Shown here piece after piece: positions 22,458 through 53,444 of a stretch of DNA of 64,000 nucleotides. A program made the position numbers and the translations under genes. The notes under the pieces were generated by a model that was not told the origin of the DNA, did not search any database, and was given only the letters and a program-made list of their open reading frames with translations. Where the stretch lies: the NCBI GenBank assembly GCA_000721275.1, contig JOFO01000004.1, forward strand, positions 62,001 through 126,000, written 5' to 3'. Numbering within the stretch: the stretch's first letter is position 1; each line of letters opens with the position of its first letter. The stretch comes from Microtetraspora glauca. Its GTDB lineage: Bacteria > Actinomycetota > Actinomycetes > Streptomycetales > Streptomycetaceae.

Positions 22458-23174
22458 TCAGTCGACGGCGGAAGACGATGGTGCCCCGTCCTGCGGTGGG
22501 CGAGGGCTCACCCGCTCGACCGTCAGCCGGTTCACCACACCGACCACGCCGTCCACCCGCCACGCGGCTCGGACCAGTACCGACGCGTCGGCCTCCGGCC
22601 CGGGCGAGCCGGCCAGGGTGACCATCCCGTCCCGGACATCGACGTGGAGCTTCTCGGCACCGCGAGGGGCCGCCCTCCGGGCAGTGACGGCGTCGGCGAC
22701 TTCCCTGCGGATCTCCTCGTCCGTTCTCAGGAAGACGCGCAGGAGGTCACGTCGCGTGGTGATGCCGATGAGGCGGTCCTCCTCGTCCACCACGGGCAGC
22801 CGGTCGATGTGACGGCGTTCCATGATGCGCGCGGCGTCGACGACGCGCTGCTCGGGGTGGACCGTGACCGCTGGACTGGTCATCAGTTCCATGGCCGCCG
22901 ACGCGGCCGGACGGGCGTGGACGAGCCGCTTCAGAACTCCCGCCAGTCGGCGTCGCCCGACACCACCGCGGCCGAGACCTGCCTGTCGCCGGGTGAGGTC
23001 CGTCTGGGACACCACACCCATGACCTTGTCGTCCTCGTCCACCACCGGCACGCCGCTGATCCGGTGGGAGGCGAGCATGCGGGCCAGTTCGCCGACTGAG
23101 GTGTCCGGGCGCGCCTGCACCACCTCACCGGTCATCACCTCGCCCACCATCCGGTTTCCGACCACGGTTCTCAT
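22458..23174 (-). CDS. CBS-pair plus BON domain protein
   Basis: The 238-residue protein carries two CBS motifs, at about 9-70 (VGEVMTGEVVQARPDTSVGE, ISGVPVVDEDDKVMGVVSQT) and about 95-155 (MTSPAVTVHPEQRVVDAARI, IDRLPVVDEEDRLIGITTRR). A BON-like domain follows at about 165-230 (LHVDVRDGMVTLAGSPG). CBS pairs bind adenine nucleotides and sense energy state. The mycobacterial CBS protein Rv2626c is a DosR-regulon member, and this gene likewise sits in a hypoxia-type island. It follows the alcohol dehydrogenase gene by 30 bp on the same strand and is probably cotranscribed with it. Confidence 0.9.
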   Translation of the reverse strand: MRTVVGNRMVGEVMTGEVVQARPDTSVGELARMLASHRISGVPVVDEDDKVMGVVSQTDLTRRQAGLGRGGVGRRRLAGVLKRLVHARPAASAAMELMTSPAVTVHPEQRVVDAARIMERRHIDRLPVVDEEDRLIGITTRRDLLRVFLRTDEEIRREVADAVTARRAAPRGAEKLHVDVRDGMVTLAGSPGPEADASVLVRAAWRVDGVVGVVNRLTVERVSPRPPQDGAPSSSAVD

Positions 23175-23204
23175 CTCCTGTCGTGCGCGCGGGTACGGGA
23201 CAGT

Positions 23205-24215
23205 TCACATCTCGAAGACCACGCGAGCCTTCACCGTTCCCTTGAGCACCTCGTCGACGCACTCGTTGACGGACGAGAGGGGGCGGGTTTCGTAGATCAC
23301 GCGGGTACGTCCGGCGGCGTGCAGCTGGAACACCTCGGCCAGGTCCTGGCGGGTACCGACGATCGAGCCGATGACGGACGTTCCGCCGAGCACGGTGGAG
23401 AAGATCGGAACCTGGACCGCGCCGTCGGCGGGAAGGGCCACCATGACCAGCCTGCCGCCCCGGCGCAGGCCGGCCAGGGCGGTCGCGAAGCTTTCCTCGC
23501 TCACCGCCAGGGCCAGGGCCGCGTGCGCGCCTCCGTACCGCTGGAGGACCGTTGCCGGGTCTTCCTTGCGGGCGTCGATGAGGATGTCGGCGCCGAGGTC
23601 GGCGGCGAGCCGGAGCTTGTCGTCGGAGATGTCGATCGCGGCCACAGTGGCACCGGCGATCTTGGCGTACTGCACGGCGAGGTGTCCCAGCCCGCCTATA
23701 CCGGAGATCGCCACGAGGTCTGTCGGACCGATGCCGGCCACCTTCAGGGCCTTGTACGTGGTGACTCCCGCGCACGTCAGAGGCGCCGCCTCGCGCGGGT
23801 CGACGCCGTCGGGCACGGGCTGCGCGAAGTCGGCGTGGGCGAGCATCTTCTCGGCGTAGGCGCCGTCGACCCCGTATCCGGTGTTGACCTGCTGTTGGCA
23901 CAGGGTCTCCCAGCCGGAGAGACAGTGCTCGCACCGTCCGCAGGCCCAGCCCAGCCAGGGCACGGCCACGCGCTGCCCGACCGACAGGTGCGTGACGCCC
24001 GCGCCGAGTTCCTCGACGATGCCGACGCCCTCGTGCCCGGGGACGAACGGGGGCGTGGGCCTGACCGGCCAGTCGCCGTGGGCCGCGTGGATGTCCGTAT
24101 GGCACAGCCCGGACGCTTCGACGCGGATGCGTACCTGTCCGGGACCGGGCACGGGATCGGGACGCTCCTCGATCACCAGCGGTTCTCCCAGGGCCTTCAC
24201 CACTGCTGCCTTCAT
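23205..24215 (-). CDS. adhP: Zinc-dependent alcohol dehydrogenase (AdhP-type)
   Basis: The 336-residue medium-chain dehydrogenase has the catalytic zinc ligands Cys in ASGLCHTDIH, His-Glu in PGHEGVGIV and the third Cys in LTCAGVTTYKAL. The four structural zinc cysteines are in CGRCEHCLSGWETLC, and the NAD-binding GIGGLGH motif follows. It should interconvert ethanol and acetaldehyde with NAD(H). The gene is divergent from GAPDH, and a DosR-like box lies between them (24346-24359). In this island it would help regenerate NAD+ under oxygen limitation, alongside AdhE. Confidence 0.93.
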   Translation of the reverse strand: MKAAVVKALGEPLVIEERPDPVPGPGQVRIRVEASGLCHTDIHAAHGDWPVRPTPPFVPGHEGVGIVEELGAGVTHLSVGQRVAVPWLGWACGRCEHCLSGWETLCQQQVNTGYGVDGAYAEKMLAHADFAQPVPDGVDPREAAPLTCAGVTTYKALKVAGIGPTDLVAISGIGGLGHLAVQYAKIAGATVAAIDISDDKLRLAADLGADILIDARKEDPATVLQRYGGAHAALALAVSEESFATALAGLRRGGRLVMVALPADGAVQVPIFSTVLGGTSVIGSIVGTRQDLAEVFQLHAAGRTRVIYETRPLSSVNECVDEVLKGTVKARVVFEM

Positions 24216-24345
24216 GGCGTGCTCCTCATGCTCGTCGTCGCTTCCAGCGTGCTGCGCGGCACGGGCAGGGAACAGAACCGGTCAGGACCCGTTCGCCGGG
24301 CCGAAGGGCCGTGGCGGACCGGGCCGGGAGGGGCACGGCGCACGA

Positions 24346-24359
24346 GGGCCCAATGACCC
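24346..24359. promoter_or_regulatory. DosR/OsdR-like box (adhP / GAPDH)
   Basis: GGGCCCAATGACCC fits GGGNC-N4-GNCCC, the half-site spacing of the DosR box. One more base on each side pairs (A and T). It lies between divergent adhP and GAPDH, 90 bp before the latter. Confidence 0.6.
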
Positions 24360-24448
24360 TGCGGCGCCCCCCGTTCGGCCCCTGCCCCCGGCCAGGCGGA
24401 GCCCACAGGCTGGCCCCACTCGAATCACCTGTCGGGAGGGCGGCGGAG

Positions 24449-25477
24449 ATGACCGTACGCATAGGCATCAACGGCTTCGGGCGCATAGGGCGCGACTACC
24501 TGCGCTGCGTCATGGGACGCATGGAGACGGGTAACGGCATCCCGGTGGAGGTGGTGGCCGTCAACGACCTCGCCTCGCCGGCCGCGCTGGCCCACCTGCT
24601 CGCCTACGACTCCACCTACGGCAGGCTCGGCCGCACCGTCGAGCACGATGACGAATCGCTCACGGTGGACGGGCACCGCATCGCCGTCACGTCCGAGCGC
24701 GACCCGGCCGACCTGCGCTGGGGGGACCTCGGTGTGGACGTGGTCATCGAGGCCACCGGCCGCTTCCGCACCAGGGAGGACGCCGGCCGGCACCTGCGGG
24801 CGGGTGCGCGCAAGGTGCTGCTCTCGGTGCCCGGCAAGGACGTGGACGCCACCTTCGTCATGGGCGTCAACGAGTACGCGTACGACCCGTACGCGCATCA
24901 CGTGATCTCCAACGCGTCCTGCACCACCAACTGCGTGGCCCCGATGGCGAAGGTCCTCGACGAGCGCTTCGGGATCGTCAAGGGACTGATGACCACCATC
25001 CACGGATACACCAACGACCAGGTCGTGCTCGACGGTCCGCACAAGGATCTGCGCCGGGGGCGCACGGCCGCCGTGAACATCATCCCGACCGGCACCGGTG
25101 CCGCCCGCGCCGTCGGTCTCGTGCTCCCGGAGCTCGCCGGCACCCTGGACGGCATCGCCGTGCGCGTGCCGGTCGAGGACGGTTCGCTGACGGACCTCAC
25201 CCTCGTCCTGGAGCAGCCGGTGTCCGCGGAGGACGTCAACGACGCCTTCCTCGACGCCGCCGGTGGACCGCTGAAGGGCATCCTGCGCGTGAGTCACGCC
25301 CCGATCGTCTCGCGCGACATCGTCGGCGACCCCGCGTCCTGCATCGTGGACGCCCTCCTGACCCAGGCCCACGGGAACCTGGTCAAGGCCTTCGGCTGGT
25401 ACGACAACGAGTGGGGCTACACCAACCGTCTGGTCGATCTGACCCAGTACGTCGCCGCCCTCCTGGACGGCCGGTGA
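24449..25477 (+). CDS. gap: Type I glyceraldehyde-3-phosphate dehydrogenase
   Basis: The 342-residue enzyme starts TVRIGINGFGRIGRDYLRCV (Rossmann motif). It has the catalytic Cys158 in SNASCTTNC and the catalytic His in TTIHGYTNDQ, and the C-terminus WYDNEWGYTNRLVDL. Asp in VNDLASP at the end of the second strand points to NAD rather than NADP. It catalyses the oxidative step of glycolysis, producing 1,3-bisphosphoglycerate and NADH. A second, island-located GAPDH beside AdhE and pyruvate formate-lyase suggests a fermentation isozyme. GGCGGAGATG gives a poor ribosome site right before ATG 24449. Confidence 0.96.
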   Translation: MTVRIGINGFGRIGRDYLRCVMGRMETGNGIPVEVVAVNDLASPAALAHLLAYDSTYGRLGRTVEHDDESLTVDGHRIAVTSERDPADLRWGDLGVDVVIEATGRFRTREDAGRHLRAGARKVLLSVPGKDVDATFVMGVNEYAYDPYAHHVISNASCTTNCVAPMAKVLDERFGIVKGLMTTIHGYTNDQVVLDGPHKDLRRGRTAAVNIIPTGTGAARAVGLVLPELAGTLDGIAVRVPVEDGSLTDLTLVLEQPVSAEDVNDAFLDAAGGPLKGILRVSHAPIVSRDIVGDPASCIVDALLTQAHGNLVKAFGWYDNEWGYTNRLVDLTQYVAALLDGR

Positions 25478-26073
25478 ACCCCGGGGCACGCGGCGGCAAC
25501 GGAGACGGGACGGCGGGCGTCAGGCGGGTGCGGCTGTGGCGATGGCGGCGCAACGCGCTGCGCCGCCGCTCCCACGCCGTGGAGGGCTGGTTCCTGCTGG
25601 TGCTGGGCGTGACCGGGTGCGTCGGCGCGCCGCTGGGCGGCGCGGCGGCCTGGGAGGCCGTGCTGGAGGCACGGTCACAGCAGCGGGCCGAGAGCCACCT
25701 CACCGACGCCGTGCTGGTGGAGGACGCCGCACCGCCGGCCAGGGGCAGCGCACGCACCACGGTCGCGGTGCGGTGGACCGACGCCGACGGCGTCCCTCAC
25801 ACCGACCGGGTGCCGGTCGCCGGCCACCTGGAGCGCGGAGCGCGTGTCCCCGTGTGGACGGATGAGGACGGCGCGATGACCTCGGCGCCGCCCGGCCTGG
25901 CCGCCGCACGGTTCGACGCCTCCGTGGCCGGAACAGCCGTCATGGTGAGCCTCGGCTTCATGGTCCTCGCCGTCCACCGGATCGTGCGACGGCGATACGA
26001 GCGTCGCCACAGCCGGCGGTGGGCGAGGGAATGGGCCCGAGTGGCTCCCGCGTGGGACCCGCGAACCGCCTGA
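25474..26073 (+). CDS. Rv1733c-family membrane protein
   Basis: GTG 25474 overlaps the GAPDH stop (GTGA), giving 199 residues. Two membrane helices are seen at about 35-55 (FLLVLGVTGCVGAPLGG) and about 150-170 (AGTAVMVSLGFMVLAV). Between them is a beta-rich extracellular part with VAVRWTDADGVPHTDRVPV and RVPVWTDEDGAMTSAP. This layout is that of the actinobacterial Rv1733c family, whose mycobacterial founder is a DosR-regulon antigen of unknown function. Overlap with GAPDH implies translation coupling. Confidence 0.8.
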   Translation: MNPGARGGNGDGTAGVRRVRLWRWRRNALRRRSHAVEGWFLLVLGVTGCVGAPLGGAAAWEAVLEARSQQRAESHLTDAVLVEDAAPPARGSARTTVAVRWTDADGVPHTDRVPVAGHLERGARVPVWTDEDGAMTSAPPGLAAARFDASVAGTAVMVSLGFMVLAVHRIVRRRYERRHSRRWAREWARVAPAWDPRTA

Positions 26074-26226: not shown

Positions 26227-28884
26227 ATGCACCAGCCGACCAGCGACCCGCACACCACCTCTGACAGCGCCCCATCGGACACGCGCGTGGCCGTGAACCT
26301 GCTGGTCGACAACGCGGCCAAGGCACTCACCGACTTCGAGTCCTTCACGCAGGAGCAGGTCGACCACATCGTCGCCAAGGCCTCCGTGGCCGCCCTCGAC
26401 CAGCACACCACCCTGGCACGGCTGGCGGTCGAGGAGACCGGACGCGGCGTGTTCGAGGACAAGGCCGCGAAGAACATGTTCGCCTGCGAACACGTCACGC
26501 ACAGCATGGCCCGGGCGAAGACGGTCGGCGTCGTCGGCCGCGACGACATCGAGGGAATCATCGAGATCGCCGAACCGGTGGGCGTGATCTGCGCGGTCAC
26601 CCCGGTCACCAATCCGACGTCGACGACCGTCTTCAAGGCGCTGCTGGCACTGAAGACGCGCAATCCGGTGGTGTTCGCCTTCCACCCCTCCGCACAGGCG
26701 TGCAGCGCCGAGGCCGCCCGCGTCGTGCGGGACGCCGCCGTCGCCGCCGGAGCCCCCGAGCACTGCGTCCAGTGGGTCGAGGAGCCCTCGATCGAGGCGA
26801 CCAGTCTCCTCATGCGCCACCCGGGCGTGGCCCTGATCCTCGCGACCGGCGGAAACGGCATGGTCAAGGCCGCCTACTCGGCGGGCAAGCCGGCCGTCGG
26901 CGTCGGCGCGGGGAACGTACCCGCCTATGTGCACCGCAGCGCTGACCTGCGCAGGGCCGTCAACGACCTCGTCCTGTCCAAGTCCTTCGACAACGGCATG
27001 ATCTGCGCCTCCGAACAGGCGGTCATCCTCGACGCGGAGGTGTACGACGAGGCCCTCACCGAGTTCCGGCGCCTGCACGCGTACCTCGCGACGGCGGAGG
27101 AGAAGAGGCAGCTGGAGACCTACCTCTTCCCGCCGGACCCGGCGGGGCGCCAGGGCCGCGTCAATCCGGCGGCCGTGGGCCAGAGCCCCGCCTGGATCGC
27201 CGAGCGGGCCGGGTTCACCGTCCCCGCCGACACCTCGCTGATCCTGGCCGAGACCGGTCGCGTCGGCCCGGGCGAGCCGCTGACGCGGGAGAAGCTCTGC
27301 CCGGTGCTCGCCGTGCTACGGGCCGGCACGCCCGAGGAGGGGTTCGACCTCGCCGCCGACATGGTCGCCTTCCACGGGCAGGGGCACAGCGCTGTGATCC
27401 ACACCGGCGACCCGGACCTCGCGGAACGATACGGCCACCGCATGAAGACGGTACGGATCATCGTCAACTCACCGTCGTCCCAGGGAGCCATCGGCGGCAT
27501 CTACAACCGCCTCCTGCCCTCGCTGACCCTGGGCTGCGGATCCTGGGGCAGCACGTCCGTCTCCGACAACGTCTCCGCCGCCCAGCTGCTCAACATCAAG
27601 CACGTCACCACACGGCAGAACAACCTGCAGTGGTTCAAGGTGCCGCCGAAGATCTACTTCGAGCCGCAGGCCATCCGCTACCTGGCCGCGATGCCGGATG
27701 TCCACCGCGTCACCGTGGTCACCGACGCCACCATGACCCGGCTCGGGTACGTCGACCGCGTCAGCCGGGTCCTGCGGCAGCGGGAGCGGCCCGTGACCCT
27801 TCAGGTCATCGACGACGTCGAACCGGAGCCGAGCATCGACTCCGTAAGACGCGGCGCCGCCCTCATGCGCGACTTCCGGCCGGACACCATCATCGCCCTC
27901 GGCGGCGGGTCCCCCATGGACGCGGCGAAGGTGATGTGGCTGCTCTACGAACAGCCGGATGTCGACTTCGCGGACATGCGGCAGAAGTTCTCCGACATCC
28001 GCAAGCGCGCCTTCCGCTTCCCGGTTCTCGGTGACCGCGCGCGCCTGGTCTGCGTCCCCACCACCTCGGGCACCGGCGCCGAGGTCACCCCCTTCGCGGT
28101 GATCTCCGACCCGGCGACCGGCAAGAAGTATCCGCTGGCCGACTACGCCCTCACCCCCAGTGTCGCGATCGTCGACCCGGTACTCACCGCCGACCTGCCG
28201 GCGTCGCTCGCCGCCGACAGCGGCTTCGACGCCCTCACGCACGCCACCGAGGCGTACGTCTCGGTCTACGCCAACGACTTCACCGACGGCCTGGCGCTGC
28301 ACGCCATCAAGCTGATCTTCGAGAACCTGGAAGCCGCCGTCACCGGCCGGGACGCACCGCGAACCCTGGCCCGGGAGAAGATGCACAACGCGGGCACCAT
28401 CGCAGGCATGGCCTTCGGCAACGCCTTCCTCGGCATCGTCCACGCCATGTCCCACACCCTGGGCGCCACCTTCCACCTCGCCCACGGGCGGACCAACGCG
28501 ATCCTCCTCCCGCACGTGATCCGCTACAACGGCACGGTTCCCGCCAAACCGACGGGATGGCCCAAGTACGAGAGCTACCGGGCGCCCGAGCGCTTCCAGG
28601 ACATCGCCCGTGCCCTGGGACTGCCGGCCTCCACCGCCGCCGAAGGCGTCGCCTCGTACGCCGCCGCCGTGGAGCGCCTGCGCGACGCCGTCGGCATCGA
28701 ACCGTCCTTCCGAGCCCTGGGCGTCGACGAGACCGACTTCACCAGCGCCCTGCCGCGGCAGGCGCTGAACGCCTACGAGGACCAGTGCGCGCCCGCCAAC
28801 CCGCGCACGCCGATGCTGGACGACATGGAGGACATCATGCGAGCCGCCTACTACGCCGGACCCCGGCCACTGCCCTTGATCTGA
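26227..28884 (+). CDS. adhE: Bifunctional acetaldehyde-CoA / alcohol dehydrogenase AdhE
   Basis: The 885-residue fusion has an N-terminal CoA-acylating aldehyde dehydrogenase (about 20-450) with catalytic Cys260 in NGMICASEQAV. Its C-terminal iron-dependent alcohol dehydrogenase (about 470-880) has GGGSPMDAAKVMWLLYE, TTSGTGAEVTPFAV, DALTHATEAYVSV and the metal-binding HAMSHTLGATFHLAHGR. It reduces acetyl-CoA to ethanol and regenerates two NAD+. AdhE is typical of fermenting bacteria and unexpected in an aerobic filamentous actinomycete. With pyruvate formate-lyase about 19 kb downstream it would complete a pyruvate-to-ethanol/formate route. The sensor kinase gene follows after 68 bp on the same strand and may share its transcript. 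Confidence 0.96.
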   Translation: MHQPTSDPHTTSDSAPSDTRVAVNLLVDNAAKALTDFESFTQEQVDHIVAKASVAALDQHTTLARLAVEETGRGVFEDKAAKNMFACEHVTHSMARAKTVGVVGRDDIEGIIEIAEPVGVICAVTPVTNPTSTTVFKALLALKTRNPVVFAFHPSAQACSAEAARVVRDAAVAAGAPEHCVQWVEEPSIEATSLLMRHPGVALILATGGNGMVKAAYSAGKPAVGVGAGNVPAYVHRSADLRRAVNDLVLSKSFDNGMICASEQAVILDAEVYDEALTEFRRLHAYLATAEEKRQLETYLFPPDPAGRQGRVNPAAVGQSPAWIAERAGFTVPADTSLILAETGRVGPGEPLTREKLCPVLAVLRAGTPEEGFDLAADMVAFHGQGHSAVIHTGDPDLAERYGHRMKTVRIIVNSPSSQGAIGGIYNRLLPSLTLGCGSWGSTSVSDNVSAAQLLNIKHVTTRQNNLQWFKVPPKIYFEPQAIRYLAAMPDVHRVTVVTDATMTRLGYVDRVSRVLRQRERPVTLQVIDDVEPEPSIDSVRRGAALMRDFRPDTIIALGGGSPMDAAKVMWLLYEQPDVDFADMRQKFSDIRKRAFRFPVLGDRARLVCVPTTSGTGAEVTPFAVISDPATGKKYPLADYALTPSVAIVDPVLTADLPASLAADSGFDALTHATEAYVSVYANDFTDGLALHAIKLIFENLEAAVTGRDAPRTLAREKMHNAGTIAGMAFGNAFLGIVHAMSHTLGATFHLAHGRTNAILLPHVIRYNGTVPAKPTGWPKYESYRAPERFQDIARALGLPASTAAEGVASYAAAVERLRDAVGIEPSFRALGVDETDFTSALPRQALNAYEDQCAPANPRTPMLDDMEDIMRAAYYAGPRPLPLI

Positions 28885-28952
28885 CGCTCCGGGCCACCCG
28901 CCCGGCCGATAGGCTGTCACGGTACGGGCGGGTGATCGACGGAGGAGGACCG

Positions 28953-30680
28953 GTGGGCGTGGAGGAGCCGCTGTCGCGGATGCCCCAGATGCGGCTCGAC
29001 GAGCTGCTGGAGGAACTGCAGGCGCGCATCAACGCCGCCCGCGGCACCCGGGACCGGGTGCACAGCCTCCTGGAGGCCGTCGTCTCGGTAGGCCGTGAAC
29101 TGGACCTCTCGCAGGTGCTGCGGCGCATCGTGGAAGCCGCCGCCCTGCTCGTCGACGCCCAGTACGCGGCGCTCGGAGTGATCGGGCCCGACGGCCGGAC
29201 CCTGTCGCAGTTCCTCACCGTCGGGCTGACGGAGGAGGAGATCGCGAAGATCGGCCCCCTGCCGGCCGGGCACGGCATCCTGGGAGAGCTCATCCGCAAC
29301 CCGGAACCGCTCCGCCTGACGGACCTCGGCGCCCACGAGGCGTCCTACGGCTTCCCTGCCCATCACCCGCCGATGCGCACGTTCCTCGGCGTGCCCATCC
29401 GGGTACGCGACGAGGTCTTCGGCAACCTCTACCTGACCGACAAGCGCGGCGGCATGGACTTCGACGCCGAGGACGAGTCGGTGATCTCCACCCTGTCCGT
29501 CGCCGCCGGCGTCGCCATCGACAACGCGCGGCTGTACGAGGGGTCGCAGCGCCAGCAGCGGTGGCTTCAGGCCAACGCGGAGATCACCAACAGCCTCCTC
29601 TCAGGCAGCCCCCGACTCGAGGTCCTGGAGCTGATCGCCCGCCGCGCCCAGGAGATCACCGGCGCGGCGCTCGCCGACGTCTCCGTGCCCGTCGCCGGGA
29701 CGGACGACCTCGTCGTCGAGCTGGCCATCGGTGCCGACGGCGAGACCCGCCGTGGCCTGGTGGTCCCGGTCGCGGGCACGCTTTCCGGCGCCGCCTACCA
29801 GGCCGGCGCCCCCGTGACCACCGCCGGCCTCGCGCAGGACGACCGGTACACCGCCGGGCCCCGTCGCTTCGACGGGCTGGGCCCGGCGGTCGCCGTCCCG
29901 CTGGGCACCGCCGTCAAGGACACCCGAGGCGTTCTGCTGCTCGCCCGTCACGAGGCCGAACCGGTCTTCACGGAGGGGGAACTCGACCCGCTGCTCGCCT
30001 TCGCAGGGCAGGCCGCGCTCGCTCTGGAGCTCGCCGCGCGGCGCAGTGACGCCGAGCAGCTCGCCCTCCTGGAGGACCGCGACCGCATCGCCCGGGACCT
30101 GCACGACCTCGCCATCCAGAGGCTCTTCGCGACCGGGATGACCCTGCAGAGCGCGGCACGGCTCGTACAGCACGAGGGCGCCGCCGAACGCGTCTCGCGC
30201 GCGGTGGGGGACCTCGACGAGACCATCAAGATCATCCGTTCCACGATCTTCGGCCTGCGTGCCCGTGAGGAGGAATCGGGACCGAGTCTGCGGGCACGCG
30301 TGGCCCGCGCGGTGGGAGAGGCGGCGACGACCCTCGGCTTCCCGCCGCGCCTGAGCATGGAGGGACTGCTCGACACGGACGTGCCGCCGCAGGTGGCCGA
30401 GCACGTCGTGGCGGCCCTCACGGAAACGCTGAGCAACGCCGCCCGCCATGCCCACGCGAGCCGGGTCGAGGTCTCGCTGCAGGCCACCAACGACGAGGTC
30501 GTCCTCACGGTGACGGACAACGGCCGGGGCATCCCCGCCGAAGGCAGGCGCAGCGGCCTTCGCAACCTCGAGGAGCGGGCGACGGGCGTGGCCGGCACGC
30601 TGCGGGTCGAGCGGCCGACGGAGGGCGGCAGCCGACTCGTGTGGCGGGCCCCCCCCCCCCCCCGCCGTGACGGCTCGTGA
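28953..30680 (+). CDS. GAF-domain sensor histidine kinase, DevS/DosT/OsdK type
   Basis: The 575-residue protein has two GAF domains (about 55-200 and 225-365) and a HisKA_3/HATPase module. The first GAF carries the DevS-like string ASYGFPAHHPPMRTFLGVPI; His138, just before Pro-Pro, corresponds to the heme-ligating His149 of mycobacterial DevS, so O2, NO or CO sensing is likely. The phospho-acceptor is His384 in RDLHDLAIQRLFATG, and the ATPase has TETLSNAARHAHAS and DNGRGIP. GTG 28953 follows GGAGGAGG; GTG 28959 is also possible. It should phosphorylate the NarL-type regulator at 32119. A 15-bp C-run lies near the 3' end. Confidence 0.92.
   Translation: MGVEEPLSRMPQMRLDELLEELQARINAARGTRDRVHSLLEAVVSVGRELDLSQVLRRIVEAAALLVDAQYAALGVIGPDGRTLSQFLTVGLTEEEIAKIGPLPAGHGILGELIRNPEPLRLTDLGAHEASYGFPAHHPPMRTFLGVPIRVRDEVFGNLYLTDKRGGMDFDAEDESVISTLSVAAGVAIDNARLYEGSQRQQRWLQANAEITNSLLSGSPRLEVLELIARRAQEITGAALADVSVPVAGTDDLVVELAIGADGETRRGLVVPVAGTLSGAAYQAGAPVTTAGLAQDDRYTAGPRRFDGLGPAVAVPLGTAVKDTRGVLLLARHEAEPVFTEGELDPLLAFAGQAALALELAARRSDAEQLALLEDRDRIARDLHDLAIQRLFATGMTLQSAARLVQHEGAAERVSRAVGDLDETIKIIRSTIFGLRAREEESGPSLRARVARAVGEAATTLGFPPRLSMEGLLDTDVPPQVAEHVVAALTETLSNAARHAHASRVEVSLQATNDEVVLTVTDNGRGIPAEGRRSGLRNLEERATGVAGTLRVERPTEGGSRLVWRAPPPPRRDGS
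30649..30663 (+). repeat. Poly-C tract of 15 inside the kinase 3' end
   Basis: Fifteen consecutive cytosines encode the Pro run in WRAPPPP, just after the last conserved kinase residues. A length change would alter only the last few residues of the protein. Such runs are rare and are prone to slippage in replication and in sequencing. Confidence 0.9.
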
Positions 30681-30797: not shown

Positions 30798-31262
30798 CTA
30801 CGGGGTGAGCCGCAGGCCCGTCACCAGGTCCGGTCGGATGCGCAGCGCGGCGTTCATGGCGGGGTGGTCCACCCAGGAGCGCAGGCGGGAGGCGATGGAC
30901 GCCAGCTCGCCCTCGTCCGTGACGCGGCGGGCGTATCCGGTGACCACGACGCTCCAGCCCAGGTGTGTTTCGGGATCGATGACGTCCGCTTCGTAGGCCA
31001 CGACGACACCGGTGGCGTCGGTGGGCGCCACGATGGAGGCGAGCGTGGCGCCGTCGTGGAGCTGGACGACGACGTCGTCGCCGTCCATGAGGTGGTTGAC
31101 GGGACGGACGGCCGGCAGGGCGTGCTGGGTGAAGACGATGCGTCCCAGGGACACGGTGCCGAGCAGGCGCAGCGCCTCGGCCCGTCCCAGCTGTGCCATC
31201 CGCCGGGGCGCCACCGCCTCGCGGTGATCGTCCACCGTTCGATGAGTGGCTTCCTCCTCCAT
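30798..31262 (-). CDS. Pyridoxamine 5'-phosphate oxidase-fold (PPOX) protein
   Basis: From ATG 31262, with AAGGTGG 7 bp upstream, the product has 154 residues: LGRAEALRLLGTVSLGRIVF, HALPAVRPVNHLMDGDDVVV, GVVVAYEADVIDPETHLGWS and VVVTGYARRV. This is the split-barrel flavin/F420-binding fold of the actinobacterial PPOX class. The mycobacterial relative Rv3129 belongs to the DosR regulon. A near-match DosR box lies about 85 bp upstream (31344-31357). A broken second copy of this gene is at 53650-53890. Confidence 0.88.
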   Translation of the reverse strand: MEEEATHRTVDDHREAVAPRRMAQLGRAEALRLLGTVSLGRIVFTQHALPAVRPVNHLMDGDDVVVQLHDGATLASIVAPTDATGVVVAYEADVIDPETHLGWSVVVTGYARRVTDEGELASIASRLRSWVDHPAMNAALRIRPDLVTGLRLTP

Positions 31263-31343
31263 CGTGCCCACCTTCTGCTCCGGTTCGGTCCTCGCGTGCT
31301 ACGTGCCTTCCGTCAGCGTGCCTGCGGCCGACCACCGGCACTA

Positions 31344-31357
31344 GGGCCGAACGGACC
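31344..31357. promoter_or_regulatory. Near-match DosR/OsdR-like box (PPOX gene)
   Basis: GGGCCGAACGGACC keeps the 5-4-5 spacing with one deviation from GNCCC. It lies upstream of the PPOX gene on the minus strand. Confidence 0.45.
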
Positions 31358-31416
31358 TTTCCCGCCACACGCGTTTCAGGCCGTCCTGCCGGAGGGCACG
31401 GCCTCCTGCCCAGCTG

Positions 31417-31737: not shown

Positions 31738-31864
31738 GGTCGTGGAGGCTGCCTCTCTGTGACCGGGCAGGGCCCGTGGCCTCTCGTTGCGCCGACAGCG
31801 CCGGCACGGGGCAGTCCACCGGAACGCGGACTCGGGCGGCATCTGCCGTGGGTCCCTCGGCGCG

Positions 31865-31878
31865 GGGCCGAAGGTCCC
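31865..31878. promoter_or_regulatory. DosR/OsdR-like box (STAS / regulator gap, site 1)
   Basis: GGGCCGAAGGTCCC fits the 5-4-5 inverted pattern and lies 128 bp upstream of the STAS start and 241 bp upstream of the regulator start. Confidence 0.6.
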
Positions 31879-32022
31879 TGTCCGGTCGGGCTGATCGCGA
31901 AGGGCCCATCGGATGCGAGTCGCCTCCGCCCGGTGTTCCTCGTCCGTGCGGTTGCCGAGCCCCGGCGATCGCATGGGCACCGCCGCTCCGGGCACCGGTG
32001 TGGAGAGGACGACGCGGAATGA

Positions 32023-32886: not shown

Positions 32887-32889
32887 TTT

Positions 32890-34707: not shown

Positions 34708-34711
34708 CCGC

Positions 34712-46107: not shown

Positions 46108-46634
46108 TCCCACCGTCCGCATCGTGTGACGCCGAACGCCTCGGCAGGCAGCCGCGACACCCCTGCGCGGCTTCAGCCGACCCGGGAACCACCAAGGACG
46201 GGAGCCGCCGGGAAGCAAGCGGGCGGGCCGGCTCGAAGGAAGTGCTGGAGCGGGCCCGGACCACTTCGTTCGTCATCCCTTCGCCCACGGTCCGGTGCCG
46301 CGCCACGGTTCTCGTCTCCATCCGACTGAGGAGCTTCCGCCCCCGCTCTCGGCCTCCACGGGGAGGCGGTGGTCCGCCGAGGGTCCATCGGCCCTGTCTC
46401 CCGGCCGTTCGGGTCACACCGCCGTGGCCGTCCACCCGGGGCGTGCGGCGTGAGGCCTCCCGGCCCCCAGCAGGGACCTCGGGCCCCCTGCGCGCACCGC
46501 TCCGGCCGATCACCGTGGAGGGGCAGGCCCGCCCAGCACCGCCCCGGAGTGCCGGACGGCGATCACCGGGCCCCTGAAGTCACCCCGCGCACGCCGCGTC
46601 CGGCCCGCCCGGCCGCCAGACCCACGGAGTCCCC
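46108..46634. other. Gene-free promoter region before a USP gene
   Basis: The 527 bp hold no recognised gene. One full box is at 46473-46486, and a GGGCCCC run at 46568-46574. Confidence 0.45.
46473..46486. promoter_or_regulatory. DosR/OsdR-like box (USP gene)
   Basis: GGGACCTCGGGCCC fits the 5-4-5 pattern and lies 149 bp before the USP start. Confidence 0.58.
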
Positions 46635-47504
46635 ATGTCCCGCACCGTCACCGCCGGCCTCGACGGATCCCCGGAGAGCCTCGCCGCCACGCAGTGGGCC
46701 GCCCAGGAGGCATCGCGACGTGCCGTGCCGCTGCGGCTGCTCCGCGTCTGGAACGTCGACGAGGATCCCCGTACCCGAGTGGTCGATCCCGCGACCGCAC
46801 GCGGATGGGGCGAGCGCACGCTCGCCATCGCCGAAAGGCGGCTGCGGCGCCGCCACCCGGGCCTGGACGTCGAGACGGCGTGGGTGGCCGGCGACCCCGT
46901 GGAGGAGCTGTGCGGTGCCGCCGAGGAAGCGGAACTGCTGGTGCTCGGCTCCCGTGGTCTGGGTGGCCTGGCCGGATTCCTCGCCGGGTCGGTCTCCCTG
47001 GCGGTGCTCGCCCGCACGCGGCGCCCGGTCGTTCTCGTCCGCCCGCACGACCCCCTGGGGCCCGATGAGGAGCGCACGGGGGAGGTGGTCGTGGGTCTGG
47101 ACGTGTCCGCCGCCTGCGACGAGCCGCTCGCCTTCGCCTTCGCCGCCGCGGACCGGTACGGCTGCGGGCTGCGCGTGGTGCACCGGTGGGCCGTACCGGC
47201 GCTCTACGGACCCGACATGCTCGACGCACTGCCGCTGCTCCTGACGGAGGTCGCCGAAGACACGCGGCGGGCGCTCGACGAGGCACTGGCCCCCTGGACC
47301 GAGAAGTTCCCGGACGTGCCGGTGGTGCGCGACTGCCGCCAGGGCCGGCCGGCGCAGGACCTGACGGAGCTGTCGCACGACGCCCGGCTCGTCGTCGTCG
47401 GCCGCAAGGCCCGCCGGGCACGGATCGGCACCCGCATCGGGGCCGTCACCCACGCGGTCCTGCACCACTGCCCGGCGCCGGTCGCGGTCGTCCCCCACGG
47501 CTGA
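46635..47504 (+). CDS. Universal stress protein, tandem domains
   Basis: The 289-residue protein has two USP domains. The first opens [20 protein letters not shown] and has the ATP loop [20 protein letters not shown]; the second opens [20 protein letters not shown] and ends [20 protein letters not shown]. As in the 41356 protein, the second domain lacks the DGS and Gly-rich loop. The sequence is closest in the window to the 41356 USP. A DosR-like box lies upstream, and the pyruvate formate-lyase gene follows after 313 bp. Confidence 0.94.
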
Positions 47505-47634
47505 ACGGACCCGGCCCCCAGAGCGGCGCACCGACACCGCCCGTCCGGCACCAGCCCCGGACGGCTCGGGCAGCCGTGCCGCCCGGCGGCTGCCTCCCCT
47601 CTCTCCGCGACGGCTCCGCGCGGCCCGCGAGGGA

Positions 47635-47672
47635 GGGCGCAAGGTCCCTCGTGCCGCCGGGACCACCGGGCC
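47635..47672. promoter_or_regulatory. Two near-match DosR/OsdR-like boxes before pflB
   Basis: GGGCGCAAGGTCCC (47635-47648) and GGGACCACCGGGCC (47659-47672) each keep the 5-4-5 spacing with one deviation. They lie 145-183 bp before pflB. A half-site pair GGCCCTTGCGGCCC is at 47715-47728. Confidence 0.45.
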
Positions 47673-47817
47673 CCGCCCACCGGGAACGACAAGGCCGGTC
47701 AGCGGCTTCGCGCGGCCCTTGCGGCCCTCGGCCGGTGGCAGGCGGACGACGAGCATCGAAGGTGAGGCCGGGCCGTCTCGCCCGCCTCGCAGGCCGCCGT
47801 CCCTTGGAGATGACGAC

Positions 47818-50076
47818 ATGACCGTGACCGTCCAGCCCCCCGCCGACACCAGCACGCCGTGGCGCGGCTTCACCGGTGAGGAGTGGCAGCGGGAGATCGA
47901 CGTCCGTTCCTTCATCCAGGACAACTACGCCCCTTACGAAGGCGGTGCCGCGTTCCTGGCCGGTCCCACGGACCGGACGCTCGCCGTGTGGAGAGCCGTC
48001 GCCGCTCTCTTCCCCGAGGAACGCCGCAAGGGCGTCCTCGACGTCGACACGGCGACGCCCTCCACCATCACGTCCCACGCGCCCGGCTACATCGACCGCG
48101 ACCGGGAGCTGATCGTCGGTCTGCAGACCGACGCCCCGCTGAAGCGGGCCATCATGCCCAACGGCGGACTGCGCATGGTCGAGAACGGATTGCGCGCCTA
48201 CGGCTTCGAGCCCGACCCGTTCGTCACCACGGTCTTCGGCACCTACCGCAAGACCCACAACGACGGCGTCTTCGACGCCTACACCCCCGAGATGCTGCGC
48301 GCCCGCAAGGCCGGCATCGTCACGGGCCTGCCCGACGCGTACGGGCGGGGCCGGATCATCGGCGACTACCGCCGCGTCGCGCTGTACGGGACCAGCCGGC
48401 TGATCGAGGCCAAGCGCGCCGAGCGGTCGCGCCTCGACCACATCCCGTCCGCGGTCGACGTCATCCGCGACCGGGAAGAACTGGCCGAGCAGATCAGGGC
48501 GCTGGGCGAGCTGGAGCGCATGGCAGCCTCCTACGGCTGCGACGTCTCCCGTCCCGCGGCCACCGCACAGGAGGCCGTCCAGTGGCTGTACCTGGGCTTC
48601 CTGGCCGCGGTGAAGGAGCAGAACGGCGCGGCGATGTCCCTCGGCCGCACCTCCACCTTCCTGGACGTCTACCTCCAGCGTGACCTCGACGAGGGGCGCA
48701 TCGACGAGAGTCGCGCCCAGGAGCTCGTCGACGACTTCGTGATCAAGCTGCGGATCGTGCGGTTCCTGCGCACCCCGGAGTACGACGCACTGTTCTCCGG
48801 CGACCCCACCTGGGTCACCGAGTCCATCGGCGGCATCGGAGAGGACGACCGCCCTCTGGTCACGCGCACCTCCTTCCGCTTCCTCCAGACCCTCTACAAC
48901 CTCGGACCCGCCCCGGAGCCCAACCTGACCGTGCTCTGGTCCCGTCGACTGCCCGAGGGGTTCAAGCGGTTCTGCGCCCAGGTCTCCATCGACACCAGCT
49001 CGATCCAGTACGAGTCCGACGACCTGCTCCGCCCCCGCACGGGTGACGACTCGGCGATCGCCTGCTGCGTCTCCGCGATGGCGGTGGGCAGGCAGATGCA
49101 GTTCTTCGGCGCCCGCGTCAACCTCGCCAAGGCCCTCCTGTACGCGATCAACGGCGGCCGCGACGAGATGACCGGTGAGCAGGTCGCCCCCGCGACCACC
49201 CCGCTGACCGGCGAGTACCTCGACCACGCCGAGGTGGCCGGCGCGTACGACCGCATGCTGGACTGGCTCGCCGCGACCTACGTCAACGCGCTCAACGTGA
49301 TCCACTACATGCACGACAAGTACGCCTACGAGCGCATCGAGATGGCCCTGCACGACCACCCGGTCCACCGGACGATGGCGTGCGGCATCGCGGGTCTCTC
49401 CGTGGCCGCCGACAGCCTCTCGGCCATCAAACACGCCCGGGTGCGGGTCATCCGGGATGCCACCGGGCTCGCCGTCGACTACCGGGTCGAGGGCGACTAC
49501 CCGGCCTACGGCAACGACGACGACCGGGCGGACCGGATCGCCGTCGACCTGGTCCGCTCCTTCATGGCCAAGGTGCGCCGGCACCCCACCTACCGGGGTG
49601 CCGAACACACGCAGTCGGTTCTCACCATCACCTCCAACGTCGTGTACGGCAAGCACACGGGCAATACGCCCGACGGCCGGCGCGCCGGAGCACCGTTCGC
49701 CCCGGGCGCGAACCCGATGAACGGCCGCGACCACCGCGGCATGGCGGCCTCGGCGCTGTCGGTCGCGAAGATCCCGTACGACCAGGCCCGCGACGGCATC
49801 TCCCTGACCTCGACCATCACCCCGGAGGGTCTGGGACACGAGCCGGCCGAACGCGCGGGGCACCTCGTCGGAATCCTCGACGCCTACACCGCCGAAGGCG
49901 GCTTCCACATGAACGTCAACGTCCTCGACCGCGCCACACTGGAGGACGCCATGGAACACCCGGACGACTACCCCGAGCTGACCATCCGCGTCTCCGGCTA
50001 CGCCGTCAACTTCGTCCGGCTCACCCGCGAACAGCAACTCGACGTCATCGGCCGCACGTTCCACGGTGCGCGATGA
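47818..50076 (+). CDS. pflB: Pyruvate formate-lyase (glycyl radical enzyme)
   Basis: The 752-residue enzyme has the usual length of PflB. The catalytic pair Cys416-Cys417 is in [11 protein letters not shown] and the radical Gly727 in [14 protein letters not shown] near the C-terminus. [28 protein letters not shown] and [18 protein letters not shown] are typical of true PFL rather than glycerol dehydratases. It converts pyruvate and CoA to acetyl-CoA and formate, and its radical is destroyed by O2, so it works only without oxygen. The activase gene overlaps its stop. Such a gene in a Streptomyces-like genome is a strong pointer to anaerobic survival metabolism. Confidence 0.96.
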
Positions 50077-50801
50077 CCACCGGCCGCATCCACTCCTGGG
50101 ACCTGTCCACCGGCGTGGACGGGCCCGGGACCCGTTTCGTCCTCTTCCTCAGCGGCTGCCCGCTGCGCTGCCTGTACTGCGCCAACCCCGACACCTGGCA
50201 CATGCGCGACGGGGAGCAGGCCACCGTGGACGACGTGCTGGCCCGCATCGAGCGGTACCGGCGGTTCACCGACCTGGCCGGCGGGGGAGTGACCCTCACC
50301 GGAGGTGAGCCTCTGCTTCAGTCCGCCTTCACGGCCGAGGTCCTGCGGCGGTGCAAGGAGCTGGGCCTGCACACCGCCCTCGACACCTCCGGTGCCCTGG
50401 GCGCCCGGGCCGACGACGCGCTCCTGGCCGACACCGATCTCGTCCTGCTCGACATCAAGTCCTTCGACGCCGGTGTCTACCGGCGCCTGACCGGCGGTCG
50501 GCTCGCACCCACCCTCGGCTTCGCCACCCGTCTGAACCGTCTCGGCGTCCGGGCCTGGATCCGCTACGTCCTCGTCCCCGGCTGGACCGACGACGAGGAG
50601 GCCATCGACGGCCTCGCCCGCTTCCTCGCCGATCTGGACAACGTCGACCGCGTCGACGTCCTTCCCTTCCACAAGCTCGGTGCCGCCAAGTACGACGCGC
50701 TCGGCATCCCCTTCCCCCTCCGTGACCGTCCCGTTCCCGACGCCGCGCTGGCCGAACGCGTGCGTGAGCAGTTCCGAGCGCACGGCCTGCGGGCGCAATG
50801 A
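50073..50801 (+). CDS. pflA: Pyruvate formate-lyase activating enzyme (radical SAM)
   Basis: The 242-residue protein has the radical-SAM cluster motif CPLRCLYC at residues 29-36, the SAM-binding [13 protein letters not shown] and the family segments [18 protein letters not shown] and [20 protein letters not shown]. It abstracts hydrogen from Gly727 of PflB using a [4Fe-4S] cluster and SAM. ATG 50073 overlaps the pflB stop (ATGA). A strong terminator follows, closing the two-gene operon. Confidence 0.95.
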
Positions 50802-50953: not shown

Positions 50954-52156
50954 TCAGGCGGTGGCGTCGGCCAGCCACAGGTCCGGGCCGAAGACCTCGT
51001 AGCGGACGTTGCGGGCGGGGATGCCGCCGCGCAGCAGCTGCGACCTGACCTCGCGCATGAAGGAGAGCGGGCCGCACAGGTACACGCTCGCGTCGGCCGG
51101 AAGTTCCAGCGCGTCGAGCTCCATCAGCCCCGTCCGGGAGCCGGGCTCCTCCGCCGCGTCCCGCTCGTACCAGAACTGGGCGCGTGCCTCGGGCAACGCG
51201 TCGACCAGCCGCTTGGTGTCGGCCCGCAGCGCGTGGTCGGCGGGCGAACGGTCGGCGTGCAGGACCGTGACGGAGCGGGTGGACGTCTCGCCGGCGAGGT
51301 GCTCCAGCATGGACACCATCGGTGTGCAGCCGATGCCCGCGGAGACGAGTGCCAACGGCGCGTCCGTCTCGTCCAGCACCACGTCACCGAACGGGACGGA
51401 GAGGGTGAGTTCGTCGCCGGCCTCGAGAGTGCGGTGCAACAGGTTCGACACTTCGCCCTCGGGAGCGCCGTTCCCGCGCACGCGCTTGACGGTGATCCGG
51501 CGCACCTGGTCGCCGGGTGCCGAGGAGAGGCTGTACTGGCGCAGTTGGTGCACGCCGTCGGGCATCCGCACGCGCACGCTGACGTACTGTCCGGCCCGGG
51601 CGCGAGGAGCCGGGGCACCGTCGGAGGGCCGCAGCAGGAAGGAGACGGTGTCGGCAGTCTCGTCGCGACGTTCGACGACGGTCCACTGTCGCCAGGGGTG
51701 CCCGGGTCGCACCTGGGCTTCGAGGCAGAGGCGGGCTTCCTGCGCGATGAGGGCGCCGGCCATCAGCCAGTAGACCTCGTCCCAGGCGGCCGCGACGTCC
51801 GGGGTGACCGCTTCGCCCAGGACGTCGGTGATGGCGGCGAACAGGTACTTGTGCACGAGGGTGTACTGATCGTCGGTGACGCCCACGGCCACGTGCTTGT
51901 GGGCGATGCGGGCGAGCAGGGCGTCCGGGCGGGTGCCGGGCTCCGCCAGGAGCGAACCGGCGAAGGCGGCGATCGACCCGGCAAGGGCCCGGCGCTGCGC
52001 GCCACTGGCCTGGTTGCCCCGGTTGAACATGCCGTCCAGCAGCTCGGGGTGCTCGGCGAACATCGTGGCGTAGAACCGGGTGGTTATCTCGTCCAGTGCC
52101 CCGCCGACGGCAGGCAGGGTGGCCCGGATCAGCGCGGCCGACTCGGCAGACAGCAT
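50954..52156 (-). CDS. hmp: Flavohemoglobin / nitric oxide dioxygenase
   Basis: The 400-residue protein has an N-terminal globin (about 1-140) with the proximal His in RIAHKHVAVGV, an FAD domain (about 150-255) with RQYSLSSAPGDQ, and a NAD domain with VSAGIGCTPMVSMLEH and VYLCGPLSFMREV. It oxidises NO to nitrate with O2, protecting heme sensors and iron-sulfur enzymes. CAGGAG lies 5 bp before ATG 52156. No NsrR-type operator was seen; the upstream gap has DosR-like boxes shared with the divergent USP gene. Confidence 0.94.
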   Translation of the reverse strand: MLSAESAALIRATLPAVGGALDEITTRFYATMFAEHPELLDGMFNRGNQASGAQRRALAGSIAAFAGSLLAEPGTRPDALLARIAHKHVAVGVTDDQYTLVHKYLFAAITDVLGEAVTPDVAAAWDEVYWLMAGALIAQEARLCLEAQVRPGHPWRQWTVVERRDETADTVSFLLRPSDGAPAPRARAGQYVSVRVRMPDGVHQLRQYSLSSAPGDQVRRITVKRVRGNGAPEGEVSNLLHRTLEAGDELTLSVPFGDVVLDETDAPLALVSAGIGCTPMVSMLEHLAGETSTRSVTVLHADRSPADHALRADTKRLVDALPEARAQFWYERDAAEEPGSRTGLMELDALELPADASVYLCGPLSFMREVRSQLLRGGIPARNVRYEVFGPDLWLADATA

Positions 52157-52275: not shown

Positions 52276-52314
52276 GGTTCAGGGCCTCACGGTCCGGTGC
52301 GGAGCAAGAGCCCG

Positions 52315-52328
52315 GGACCAGTGGCCCG
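52315..52328. promoter_or_regulatory. DosR/OsdR-like box (hmp / USP gap, site 2)
   Basis: GGGACCAGTGGCCC lies 53 bp from the 52262 box, that is, five helical turns on the same DNA face. Confidence 0.65.
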
Positions 52329-52460
52329 GAGCGGGAGCGGGGCCTCTCGCACACGCCGCGGACCTCGTGCCGCCCACGACTCCCTCCCGCGCTCTCCGCC
52401 ACCTGAGACCGGCTCAAGGCCCTGGCGGGCAGCACAGCAGGGCCATCGAGGCCCACGTCA

Positions 52461-52474
52461 GGGACGATCGGCCC
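52461..52474. promoter_or_regulatory. DosR/OsdR-like box (hmp / USP gap, site 3)
   Basis: GGGACGATCGGCCC lies 95 bp before the USP start, the same distance class as the boxes at 24346, 32023 and 35443. Confidence 0.66.
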
Positions 52475-52568
52475 CAGCGCCGGCCGCCGGGTTCCTGCGA
52501 GGCTCGCCTCACCGCGTCAGCAGCTCCGCCGACGCCTTCACCCGCACCGGCAGCCCCGGGAGGCACCC

Positions 52569-53444
52569 ATGTCCGGCACCATCACCGTAGGACTCGACGG
52601 AACCGACCACGCCCTCGCGGCAGCGGACTGGGCGGCGGACGAGGCGGAGCGCCGCGGCGCGAGCGTGCGGCTGGTCCATGCCTGGGTCTGGGGCCCCACC
52701 GACGTGGTGTACGTCGGCGACCGCGCGGCGGAGGAGCGCTGGGCACGCGACGCGCTCAACGAGGCGCGGGCCCGCATCGCCAAGAAGCACCCGTCCCTGG
52801 ACGTCACCACCGAACTCCTCGTCGGCGACCCGGTGCCCACCCTTCTCACCGAGGCCGCACGCGCCGAGATGCTGGTGCTGGGATCCCGTGGCTACGGCAC
52901 TCTCACCGGTTATCTGATCGGCTCCGTCTCGCTCCACGTGCTTCGACAGGCGACAGGGCCCGTCGTCATGGTCAGGATGCCCGAGGTCTCCACGCGCCGG
53001 CACGAACCCGGGGAGGAGGAGGTGGTGGTCGGCGTCCAGGAACCCGGAGAGAGCGGCGACTCCGTCCTGGAGTTCGCCTTCACGGCCGCCGCCGAACGAG
53101 GAGCGGCCCTGCGTGTCGTGCACGCCTGGAGCATCCCGACAGCCCTTGCCTGGGGCCCCGGGTCGCTGTACCTGGCCGACCAGGCCGGTGCTCTGGCGCG
53201 GATCAACCGGGAGGTCCTGGCCGACGTCCTCGTGCCATGGCGCGACAAGTACCCCGGGGTGGAGGTCATCGAGCACTTCGAGATCGGCTCGCCCTCCGAA
53301 GTGCTGCTGCACAGCAGCGTCCGTGCCGGCCTGGTCGTCGTCGGTCGCCGCTCCCACGAGGCGGGCCTGCGACGCCTCGGAGCGGTCACCCACGCCGTCC
53401 TGCACCATGCCTCCGCACCCGTGGCGGTCGTGCCGCACGACTGA
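52569..53444 (+). CDS. Universal stress protein, tandem domains
   Basis: The 291-residue protein has two USP domains. The first opens ITVGLDGTDHALAAADWAAD and has the ATP loop LGSRGYGTLTGYLIGSVSLH; the second opens VVVGVQEPGESGDSVLEFAF and ends VVGRRSHEAGLRRLGAVTHA, again without a full ATP loop. Three DosR-like boxes lie in the upstream gap. It is the last intact gene of the island before the duplicated PPOX/STAS remnants. Confidence 0.94.
   Translation: MSGTITVGLDGTDHALAAADWAADEAERRGASVRLVHAWVWGPTDVVYVGDRAAEERWARDALNEARARIAKKHPSLDVTTELLVGDPVPTLLTEAARAEMLVLGSRGYGTLTGYLIGSVSLHVLRQATGPVVMVRMPEVSTRRHEPGEEEVVVGVQEPGESGDSVLEFAFTAAAERGAALRVVHAWSIPTALAWGPGSLYLADQAGALARINREVLADVLVPWRDKYPGVEVIEHFEIGSPSEVLLHSSVRAGLVVVGRRSHEAGLRRLGAVTHAVLHHASAPVAVVPHD

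Follow-up and report, generated by a model that had tools for sequence, protein, structure and literature searches.

The stretch of DNA analysed here (the window, 64 kb, C4:62001-126000 of a 7.47-Mb assembly belonging to the genus Streptomyces) carries, at positions 22458-53444, the genes of a DosR/OsdR-type dormancy island intermixed with those of a fermentation pathway centred on pyruvate formate-lyase (PFL). Genes were called on composition, and families were assigned by Pfam and NCBIfam profile searches with curated cut-offs. All of the genes named beforehand in a sequence-only reading of this DNA were found between these positions, namely the sensor kinase, the response regulator, a P-type ATPase, HPF, CBS-BON, PPOX, Rv1733c-family and flavohemoglobin proteins, PflB and PflA, AdhE, AdhP, glyceraldehyde-3-phosphate dehydrogenase (GAPDH) and the phosphoketolase Xfp. 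That reading described the universal stress protein (USP) genes as four in tandem, but they are dispersed (at 35545, 41356, 46635 and 52569) and each encodes two Usp domains. It had also overlooked an antiporter and TrkA_C pair, a STAS protein and the position of the kinase gene, 47 nucleotides (nt) after adhE. We suggest, at a probability of about two in three, that this is a Streptomyces DevR/OsdR dormancy island with a full pyruvate-to-formate/ethanol/acetate fermentation module inside its regulon.

The kinase has the layout of DevS and DosT, with a first GAF domain containing the His and Tyr, a second GAF domain, HisKA_3 and HATPase, and DosT and DevS are also the structures that its first GAF domain matches best. 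Its H145 and Y167 align by sequence, under an assumed construct numbering, with DosS H149 and Y171, which we take to be the heme proximal His and distal Tyr positions. At the position of DosS Glu87, presumably the gating residue, the alignment gives it a glycine shared with DosT. The kinase is thus a DevS/DosT-like predicted heme sensor. The regulator consists of a receiver domain and a LuxR helix-turn-helix and keeps D54, T82, K104, K179, K182, N183 and T205 of DevR, with T198 changed; its own D65, K193, K196 and N197 occupy DevR positions 54, 179, 182 and 183, of which we take the first to be the phosphorylation residue and the others the DNA-contact Lys, Lys and Asn. Together with the boxes described below, the heme positions and the key residues of the regulator agree with the earlier assignment to the DosR/OsdR type. 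Three close DevR homologues (100, 75 and 65%) occur in this genome and could share control, and the one in the island may be either the orthologue of SCO0204 or a paralogue. The 75% copy forms a convergent pair with a second DevS (60%) in locus L093 (G000:C4:166001-186000) at 12097-14432, which is at about C4:178-180 kb and some 86 kb from the first regulator, and the 65% copy lies at G000:C94:5829-6479.

Binding sites were scored with a symmetric matrix of 16 bases built from the 26 S. coelicolor OsdR sites in Table 1 of PMC5069765. Taking the sites from a different species keeps the test independent of the genome examined. At a score of 15 or more there are six boxes in the island (31.3 kb) and three in control sequence totalling 300 kb, taken as 15 stretches from elsewhere in this genome; the other 32.7 kb of the window has none. 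Five of the six stand in front of USP4, hpf/xfp, PPOX, devR and USP1, and the sixth falls in the space separating the STAS gene from devR. The control stretches are not depleted of sites, since 11 of the 15 hold the exact pattern. Seven island boxes reach 13; of 1000 palindromic matrices with permuted columns, one equalled this number. Taken over all scores, the boxes stand upstream of devR, PPOX, STAS, USP1, USP3, USP4, hpf/xfp and adhP/gap, with weak ones at pflB. Genome-wide, the loose pattern with one mismatch occurs at 972 places against 1559 for a reversed control and is therefore not enriched; the case for the boxes rests on their local clustering and on the matrix, and from the genome-wide count only the exact places were used, for clustering. 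The island runs past 53444, with boxes, USP and CBS-BON genes and the second DevR/DevS pair up to about C4:180 kb; the three successive 20-kb stretches rightward of the window contain 7, 4 and 1 boxes of at least 13. In that direction, at 13675-14130 of L092 (G000:C4:146001-166000), a protein that by eye is Hsp20-like is encoded directly after an OsdR-type box of 16.1 at 13526; HspX is a member of the DosR regulon.

Table 1. Genes and OsdR-type boxes of the island, in window coordinates (box scores from the weight matrix; profile scores in bits).
Feature	Position	Strand	Box score	Basis or remark
CBS-BON protein	22458..23174	-		PF00571, PF04972
AdhP, Zn alcohol dehydrogenase	23205..24215	-		NF006940, 345.7 vs cut-off 344 (margin 1.7)
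Two boxes between divergent adhP and gap	24297..24360		11.0, 8.7	weight matrix
Type I GAPDH	24449..25477 (open frame from 24311)	+		TIGR01534, 408 vs cut-off 367
Rv1733c-family membrane protein	25474..26073	+		NF050032, 139.8 vs cut-off 80
AdhE, bifunctional acetaldehyde-CoA/alcohol dehydrogenase	26227..28884	+		NF010378, 1335.7 vs cut-off 951
DevS/DosT-like sensor kinase, GAF-GAF-HisKA_3-HATPase	28932..30680	+		47 nt after adhE, same strand
PPOX-type flavoprotein	30798..31271	-		PF12900
Box upstream of PPOX	31343..31358		17.9	weight matrix
STAS-domain protein, start uncertain	31417..31752	-		PF01740 on longer frame 31417-32205
Box between STAS gene and devR	31864..31879		15.5	weight matrix
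Box 89 nt upstream of devR-like gene	32022..32037		16.1	weight matrix
DevR/OsdR-like response regulator	32119..32820	+		133/207 residues identical to DevR 3c3w
Cation/H+ antiporter and TrkA_C protein, putatively KhtU/KhtT-like	33463..35191	-		PF00999, PF02080
Two boxes upstream of USP1	35369..35457		13.0, 16.0	weight matrix
USP1, two Usp domains	35545..36450	+		PF00582
CtpF-like P-type cation ATPase	36447..39185	+		PF00122, PF00689; TIGR01522, 736 vs cut-off 798
USP2, two Usp domains	41356..42282	-		PF00582; no strong box directly upstream
HPF-type ribosome hibernation factor	42462..43253	-		PF16321; PF02482 slightly below cut-off; NCBIfam none
Box between hpf (138 nt) and xfp (~305 nt from likely start)	43383..43398		18.2	
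Xfp phosphoketolase	43696..46107 (open frame from 43546)	+		PF09364, PF03894, PF09363; NF003619, NF003621
Two boxes upstream of USP3	46380..46487		13.0, 10.4	weight matrix
USP3, two Usp domains	46635..47504	+		PF00582
Weak tandem box pair upstream of pflB	47634..47673		9.9, 7.2	weight matrix
PflB, pyruvate formate-lyase	47818..50076	+		TIGR01255, 1133 vs cut-off 994
PflA, PFL-activating radical SAM enzyme	50073..50801	+		TIGR02493, 295 vs cut-off 232
Flavohemoglobin	50954..52156	-		PF00042, PF00970, PF00175
Box upstream of USP4	52460..52475		19.4	weight matrix
USP4, two Usp domains	52569..53444	+		PF00582

Comparison across the genus proved informative about the association of PFL with this type of island. 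In a sample of 150 Streptomyces genomes, PFL-like genes occur in 57 and DevR homologues (E <=1e-80, a threshold that also lets in the ~65% type) in 138. The 59 PFL loci fetched cover every listed PFL match besides that of the window; PflB was kept where the match covers at least 85%, as in 55 of the 59, and L087-L090, with split or partial copies, were left out. Contexts were examined for 39 of 80 named loci. By identity to the PflB of the window the 55 near-full-length proteins divide into 34 of an island type (>78%) and 21 of a core type (70-74%), and a near-full-length island-type PFL is present in 34 of the 150 genomes, the window's included. Gene contexts were counted on this set with its 34 island-type loci and not on the 45-locus set used for boxes below. 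DevR (at least 65%) lies within ~9 kb of pflB at 18 of 34 island-type and 2 of 21 core-type loci; over the same distance the figures are 29/34 and 2/21 for any USP, 16/34 and 0/21 for AdhP, 10/34 and 1/21 for AdhE, 7/34 and 0/21 for Xfp and, with no significant difference, 5/34 and 2/21 for DevS. At least one of DevR, DevS, USP and AdhP accompanies 31 of 34 island-type and 2 of 21 core-type pflB genes, and of the three island-type loci with no such neighbour two (L049 and L063) carry one DevR homologue further off on the same contig, at a distance of 26-35 kb. The spacing of some genes also recurs: pflA and devR lie on the same strand 96-110 nt apart in L069, L120 (S. globisporus) and L128, 68 nt apart in L127 (Sphaerisporangium) and 443 nt apart in L060, and the adhE-devS gap, 47 nt in the window, is ~45-52 nt in L045, L066, L089 and L118.

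The boxes follow a similar division. A box of at least 10 precedes 26 of 34 island-type pflB genes, 5 of 21 of the core type and 13 of 103 control genes, the last being those whose upstream space exceeds 120 nt among 237 genes in the 15 control stretches (Fisher p 8e-12 for island-type genes against controls). Only 2 of 1000 column-permuted palindromic matrices reach 26/34, and none reaches the 20/34 observed at a score of 12. For other genes, counts were made on 45 island-type loci including the duplicate L117 = L045, with L117 and L118 left out of the tallies; boxes of at least 10 were found at 26/27 devR, 7/7 PPOX, 3/3 flavohemoglobin, 2/2 hpf, 8/12 adhE and 37/79 USP genes. Of the pair upstream of the window's pflB, the position of the second (~-150) also holds a box in L117/L045, L118 and L066 (10.9-12.7), whereas that of the first (~-175) recurs only in L117/L045 (9.4), which carry a box of 18.5 further up. 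In L117 the divergent region between adhP and adhE, without the intervening gap and Rv1733c genes, has a box of 16.6. In the window these two genes separate the adhP/gap promoter from adhE, so that control of adhE there would presumably come by read-through. The claim of the sequence-only reading that PFL belongs to such a regulon is supported by boxes across the genus; those of the window's own pflB are weak.

The same reading held that the regulon had gained PFL in this strain, and this does not agree with the distribution of the gene. In a PflB tree of 96 rows (quick method, midpoint root; one of the 96 loci, L073, dropped under the rule of aligned length <690 or a stop), the 43 island-type rows, a group defined by identity, form one side of a branch with a support of 99, and PFLs of Actinomadura, Acrocarpospora and Sphaerisporangium adjoin them. 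A class-wide sample of 246 genomes yielded PFL relatives (E <=1e-150) in 25, of which 10 belong to this genus; from other families 15 loci were fetched, with L203, L205 and L215 clipped by contig ends. Some of these loci also have DevR or DevS beside PFL: L201 unites HPF-, AdhE-, DevR-, DevS-, PflA-, PflB-, CBS-BON-, GAPDH-, AdhP- and CtpF-like genes within 20 kb, and L205 holds PflBA, GAPDH, AdhP, CBS-BON, DevR, DevS and CtpF-like genes together. Apparent losses occur as well. Four of the 57 genomes with PFL (G034, G042, G086 and G105) have it only in split or partial form, at loci with island genes, and the PFL of G013 (L073) stops at residue 650. A recent gain by this strain was rejected on the genus-wide recurrence, the single tree group and the other-family clusters; it is probable that the module is old, recurrent and optional, with losses, and it is split or partial in some lineages, apparently S. 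lividans included. In L084 (G048) and L085 (G036), two of the five core-type loci with a box at pflB, a core-type PFL, placed inside the Streptomyces core-type group in the tree, stands beside DevR/DevS with boxes of 16.6 and 15.4, apparently a separate recruitment of PFL.

PflB is a full-length glycyl radical enzyme above the equivalog cut-off; it can be aligned with E. coli PFL (1h16) from residue 12 to residue 749, and the Cys-Cys pair and C-terminal Gly loop (RVSGY) are kept. Outside the island, at C2:118613-120795, lies the only Pta and AckA pair of the genome, side by side, and with it the mixed-acid set (PFL, activase, AdhE, Pta and AckA) is complete; on paper pflBA, adhE and Pta-AckA give a balanced formate/ethanol/acetate fermentation. 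The glycyl radical of PFL is labile to O2, so the enzyme is active only without it. From the genes alone we infer that the strain could ferment in hypoxia, and the following sequence of events is proposed. When oxygen falls, O2 would leave the predicted heme of the DevS-like kinase, which would then phosphorylate the DevR-like regulator at its conserved site. The regulator would bind the boxes of GGGCC-N4-GGCCC type found in the sequence and might thereby switch on its own gene, the USPs, HPF, PPOX and probably flavohemoglobin, and also adhP/gap-adhE, xfp and pflBA. The kinase gene, directly behind adhE and in the same direction, may be co-transcribed with it. Once O2 is gone PFL could work and AdhE could reoxidise NADH, while Pta-AckA would turn acetyl-CoA, or the acetyl phosphate from Xfp, into ATP. 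If HPF parks the ribosomes, a little fermentative ATP might be enough to sustain resting mycelium.

The genome's second PFL is of the core type and lies in L034 (G000:C12:104300-124200) at 2560-10818, where pflB, pflA, a 372-aa unknown protein, a formate dehydrogenase (FDH)-like molybdopterin enzyme and 4Fe-4S, Rieske and DUF6755-like proteins follow each other on one strand. The molybdoenzyme scores 573 bits against a curated FDH cut-off of 666. This looks like a PFL with a formate-oxidising electron-transfer cluster, which may be a formate-handling partner or an unrelated system.

Much of the gene set has counterparts in known systems. The DosR (DevR) regulon of M. tuberculosis likewise combines a heme-GAF-type kinase and LuxR-type regulator with USP, CtpF-like, Rv1733c, HPF, CBS and PPOX families, and to our knowledge it holds neither PFL nor AdhE. 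In M. smegmatis, also an aerobe, a DosR-controlled fermentative hydrogenase reportedly provides a redox outlet as H2, whereas here the outlet would be formate and ethanol by way of PFL and AdhE. Mixed-acid fermentation in enterobacteria and Firmicutes uses the same enzymes with the same likely products, but under FNR (PMC4601167) or Rex (PMC5355995), where the window's set adjoins a DevR-type system. The closest counterpart is the OsdR/OsdK (SCO0204/SCO0203) island of S. coelicolor and S. lividans, where a DevR/DevS-type pair likewise lies among genes for USPs, alcohol dehydrogenase, CBS and PPOX proteins (PMC5069765, PMC6302529); the box consensus is the same, and S. lividans also has PFL and a fragment of its activase close by. 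In PMC5069765 OsdR is reported to bind promoters targeted by DevR, and induction of osdR at low oxygen is cited. The published island has a nitrate reductase (Nar2), a pyruvate phosphate dikinase and a fragmentary PFL activase, unlike the window, in which pflBA, adhE, gap and xfp are intact and no nar gene stands among those annotated in 22458-53444, no search aimed at nar having been made. The sequence-only reading knew of no report placing PFL under such a regulator, but Table 2 of PMC6302529 lists as co-expressed with OsdR both SLIV_36865 (SCO0206), a 'putative pyruvate formate-lyase', and SLIV_36867, an N-terminal fragment of the PFL-activating protein and putative pseudogene; PFL in the OsdR regulon has thus already been seen in print. 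In that paper PFL is mentioned twice, both times in this table. A partial literature search, mostly of titles and the beginnings of abstracts, found no discussion of PFL in the OsdR regulon, no paper on SCO0206 and nothing relevant linking PFL with DosR/DevR beyond the papers cited.

It is also conceivable, although unlikely, that the regulon is real but serves redox or carbon overflow at low oxygen or in development and not survival by fermentation, with PFL supplying formate and acetyl-CoA for biosynthesis, AdhE and AdhP detoxifying aldehydes and Xfp bypassing glycolysis. The balance of the pathway on paper, and the usefulness of a glycyl-radical enzyme only where O2 is absent, argue against such a role. 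In its favour, S. coelicolor OsdR controls stress genes, with developmental genes deregulated in its mutant (PMC5069765), and the S. lividans genes co-expressed with OsdR include pentose-phosphate isoenzymes and Gap3 (PMC6302529, Table 2).

A number of observations weigh against a regulon that includes a fermentation module. Streptomycetes show an 'anaerobic paradox', surviving anoxia and holding many anaerobic genes, yet they are reported to be without anaerobic growth (PMC5069765). In the genome no formate channel of the FNT family (PF01226) was found, although another exporter is possible, and either of the other two DevR homologues (75 and 65%) could be the actual regulator. The window's own pflB boxes reach only 9.9 and 7.2, and the matrix scan found no box directly upstream of adhE or of USP2. 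Upstream of pflB, four of the 34 island-type loci stay under a score of 8, and the core-type pflB genes of L037, L067 and L079, without island neighbours, score 10.8-15.5, which argues against full specificity. Across the island loci boxes of at least 10 stand at only 2/9 xfp, 2/6 gap, 8/19 adhP, 11/33 CBS-BON and 1/9 devS genes, so that control of xfp, gap and devS by boxes of their own is not general. Beyond the genus, DevR and/or DevS lie near PFL in only 5 of the 15 other-family loci (L201, L205, L206, L207 and L210), and with the Streptomyces matrix no pflB box of at least 10 was found in the two fullest clusters (L201, 4.3; L205, 5.1).

Some of these points would fit a neighbourhood without function, a stress-gene archipelago that collects accessory genes, in which PFL, AdhE and Xfp are outside DevR-like control and PFL hardly works in an aerobe. 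The weak boxes at pflB and their absence at adhE agree with this, as do the reshuffling of island gene order between loci, the split or truncated PFLs of five genomes and a broken Tn3-type transposase at 54226-57281. We nevertheless regard such a neighbourhood as quite unlikely, given that core-type PFLs are mostly outside such regions, that boxes are enriched at island-type pflB, that other families have much of the same gene set and that PflB in the window retains its full length and its catalytic motifs. Control of the fermentation genes by the redox repressor Rex, with the DevR-type island a mere neighbour, is very improbable: according to PMC5355995, pflBA and adhE are under Rex in S. aureus, as are respiratory genes in Streptomyces, but it was rejected as the obvious regulator since the sole match to TGTGAACNNNTTCACA (up to three mismatches) in the 64 kb, against a chance mean of 3.99, is at 20730, outside the island.

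A wider reading can be offered tentatively, at somewhat less than even odds. In this, pflBA, adhE, adhP, gap, xfp and DevR/DevS would form an ancient 'fermentative dormancy' module common to several actinobacterial families, which about one-fifth of the Streptomyces species sampled have kept and which is broken in S. lividans; where the module is intact, a species could ferment through anoxia, and PFL would have been put under a DevR-type switch at least twice, in the island-type group and in the core-type L084/L085. The 'anaerobic paradox' of Streptomyces would then be partly an accident of the models chosen. The recurrence of the arrangement in many relatives suggests that some of these supposedly strict aerobes could ferment to outlast airless spells. 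Many species have the PFL pathway intact, whereas near osdR in S. lividans it is apparently broken, so that the anaerobic question becomes testable by choice of species; a PFL pathway in such a regulon would also widen the DosR concept from shutdown to fuel switching.

Several minor features of the window may be added. Two open frames were rejected as genes, 46104-46577, for which Pfam gave no match, and 32870-33637, which was judged on its translation and was not picked by the composition-based call. The ATPase is named no further than CtpF-like, as it falls under the cut-off for PMR1-type Ca-ATPases. In the transposase at 54226-57281 a DUF4158 part and a DDE part are in separate open frames, and an N-terminal piece of a resolvase lies at 60290-60814; both stand just rightward of the island's fermentation genes. 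The GAF-SpoIIE phosphatase encoded at 57648-59237 has relatives in L094 and several PFL loci, and relatives of the antiporter and TrkA_C pair also occur in L069 and L207.

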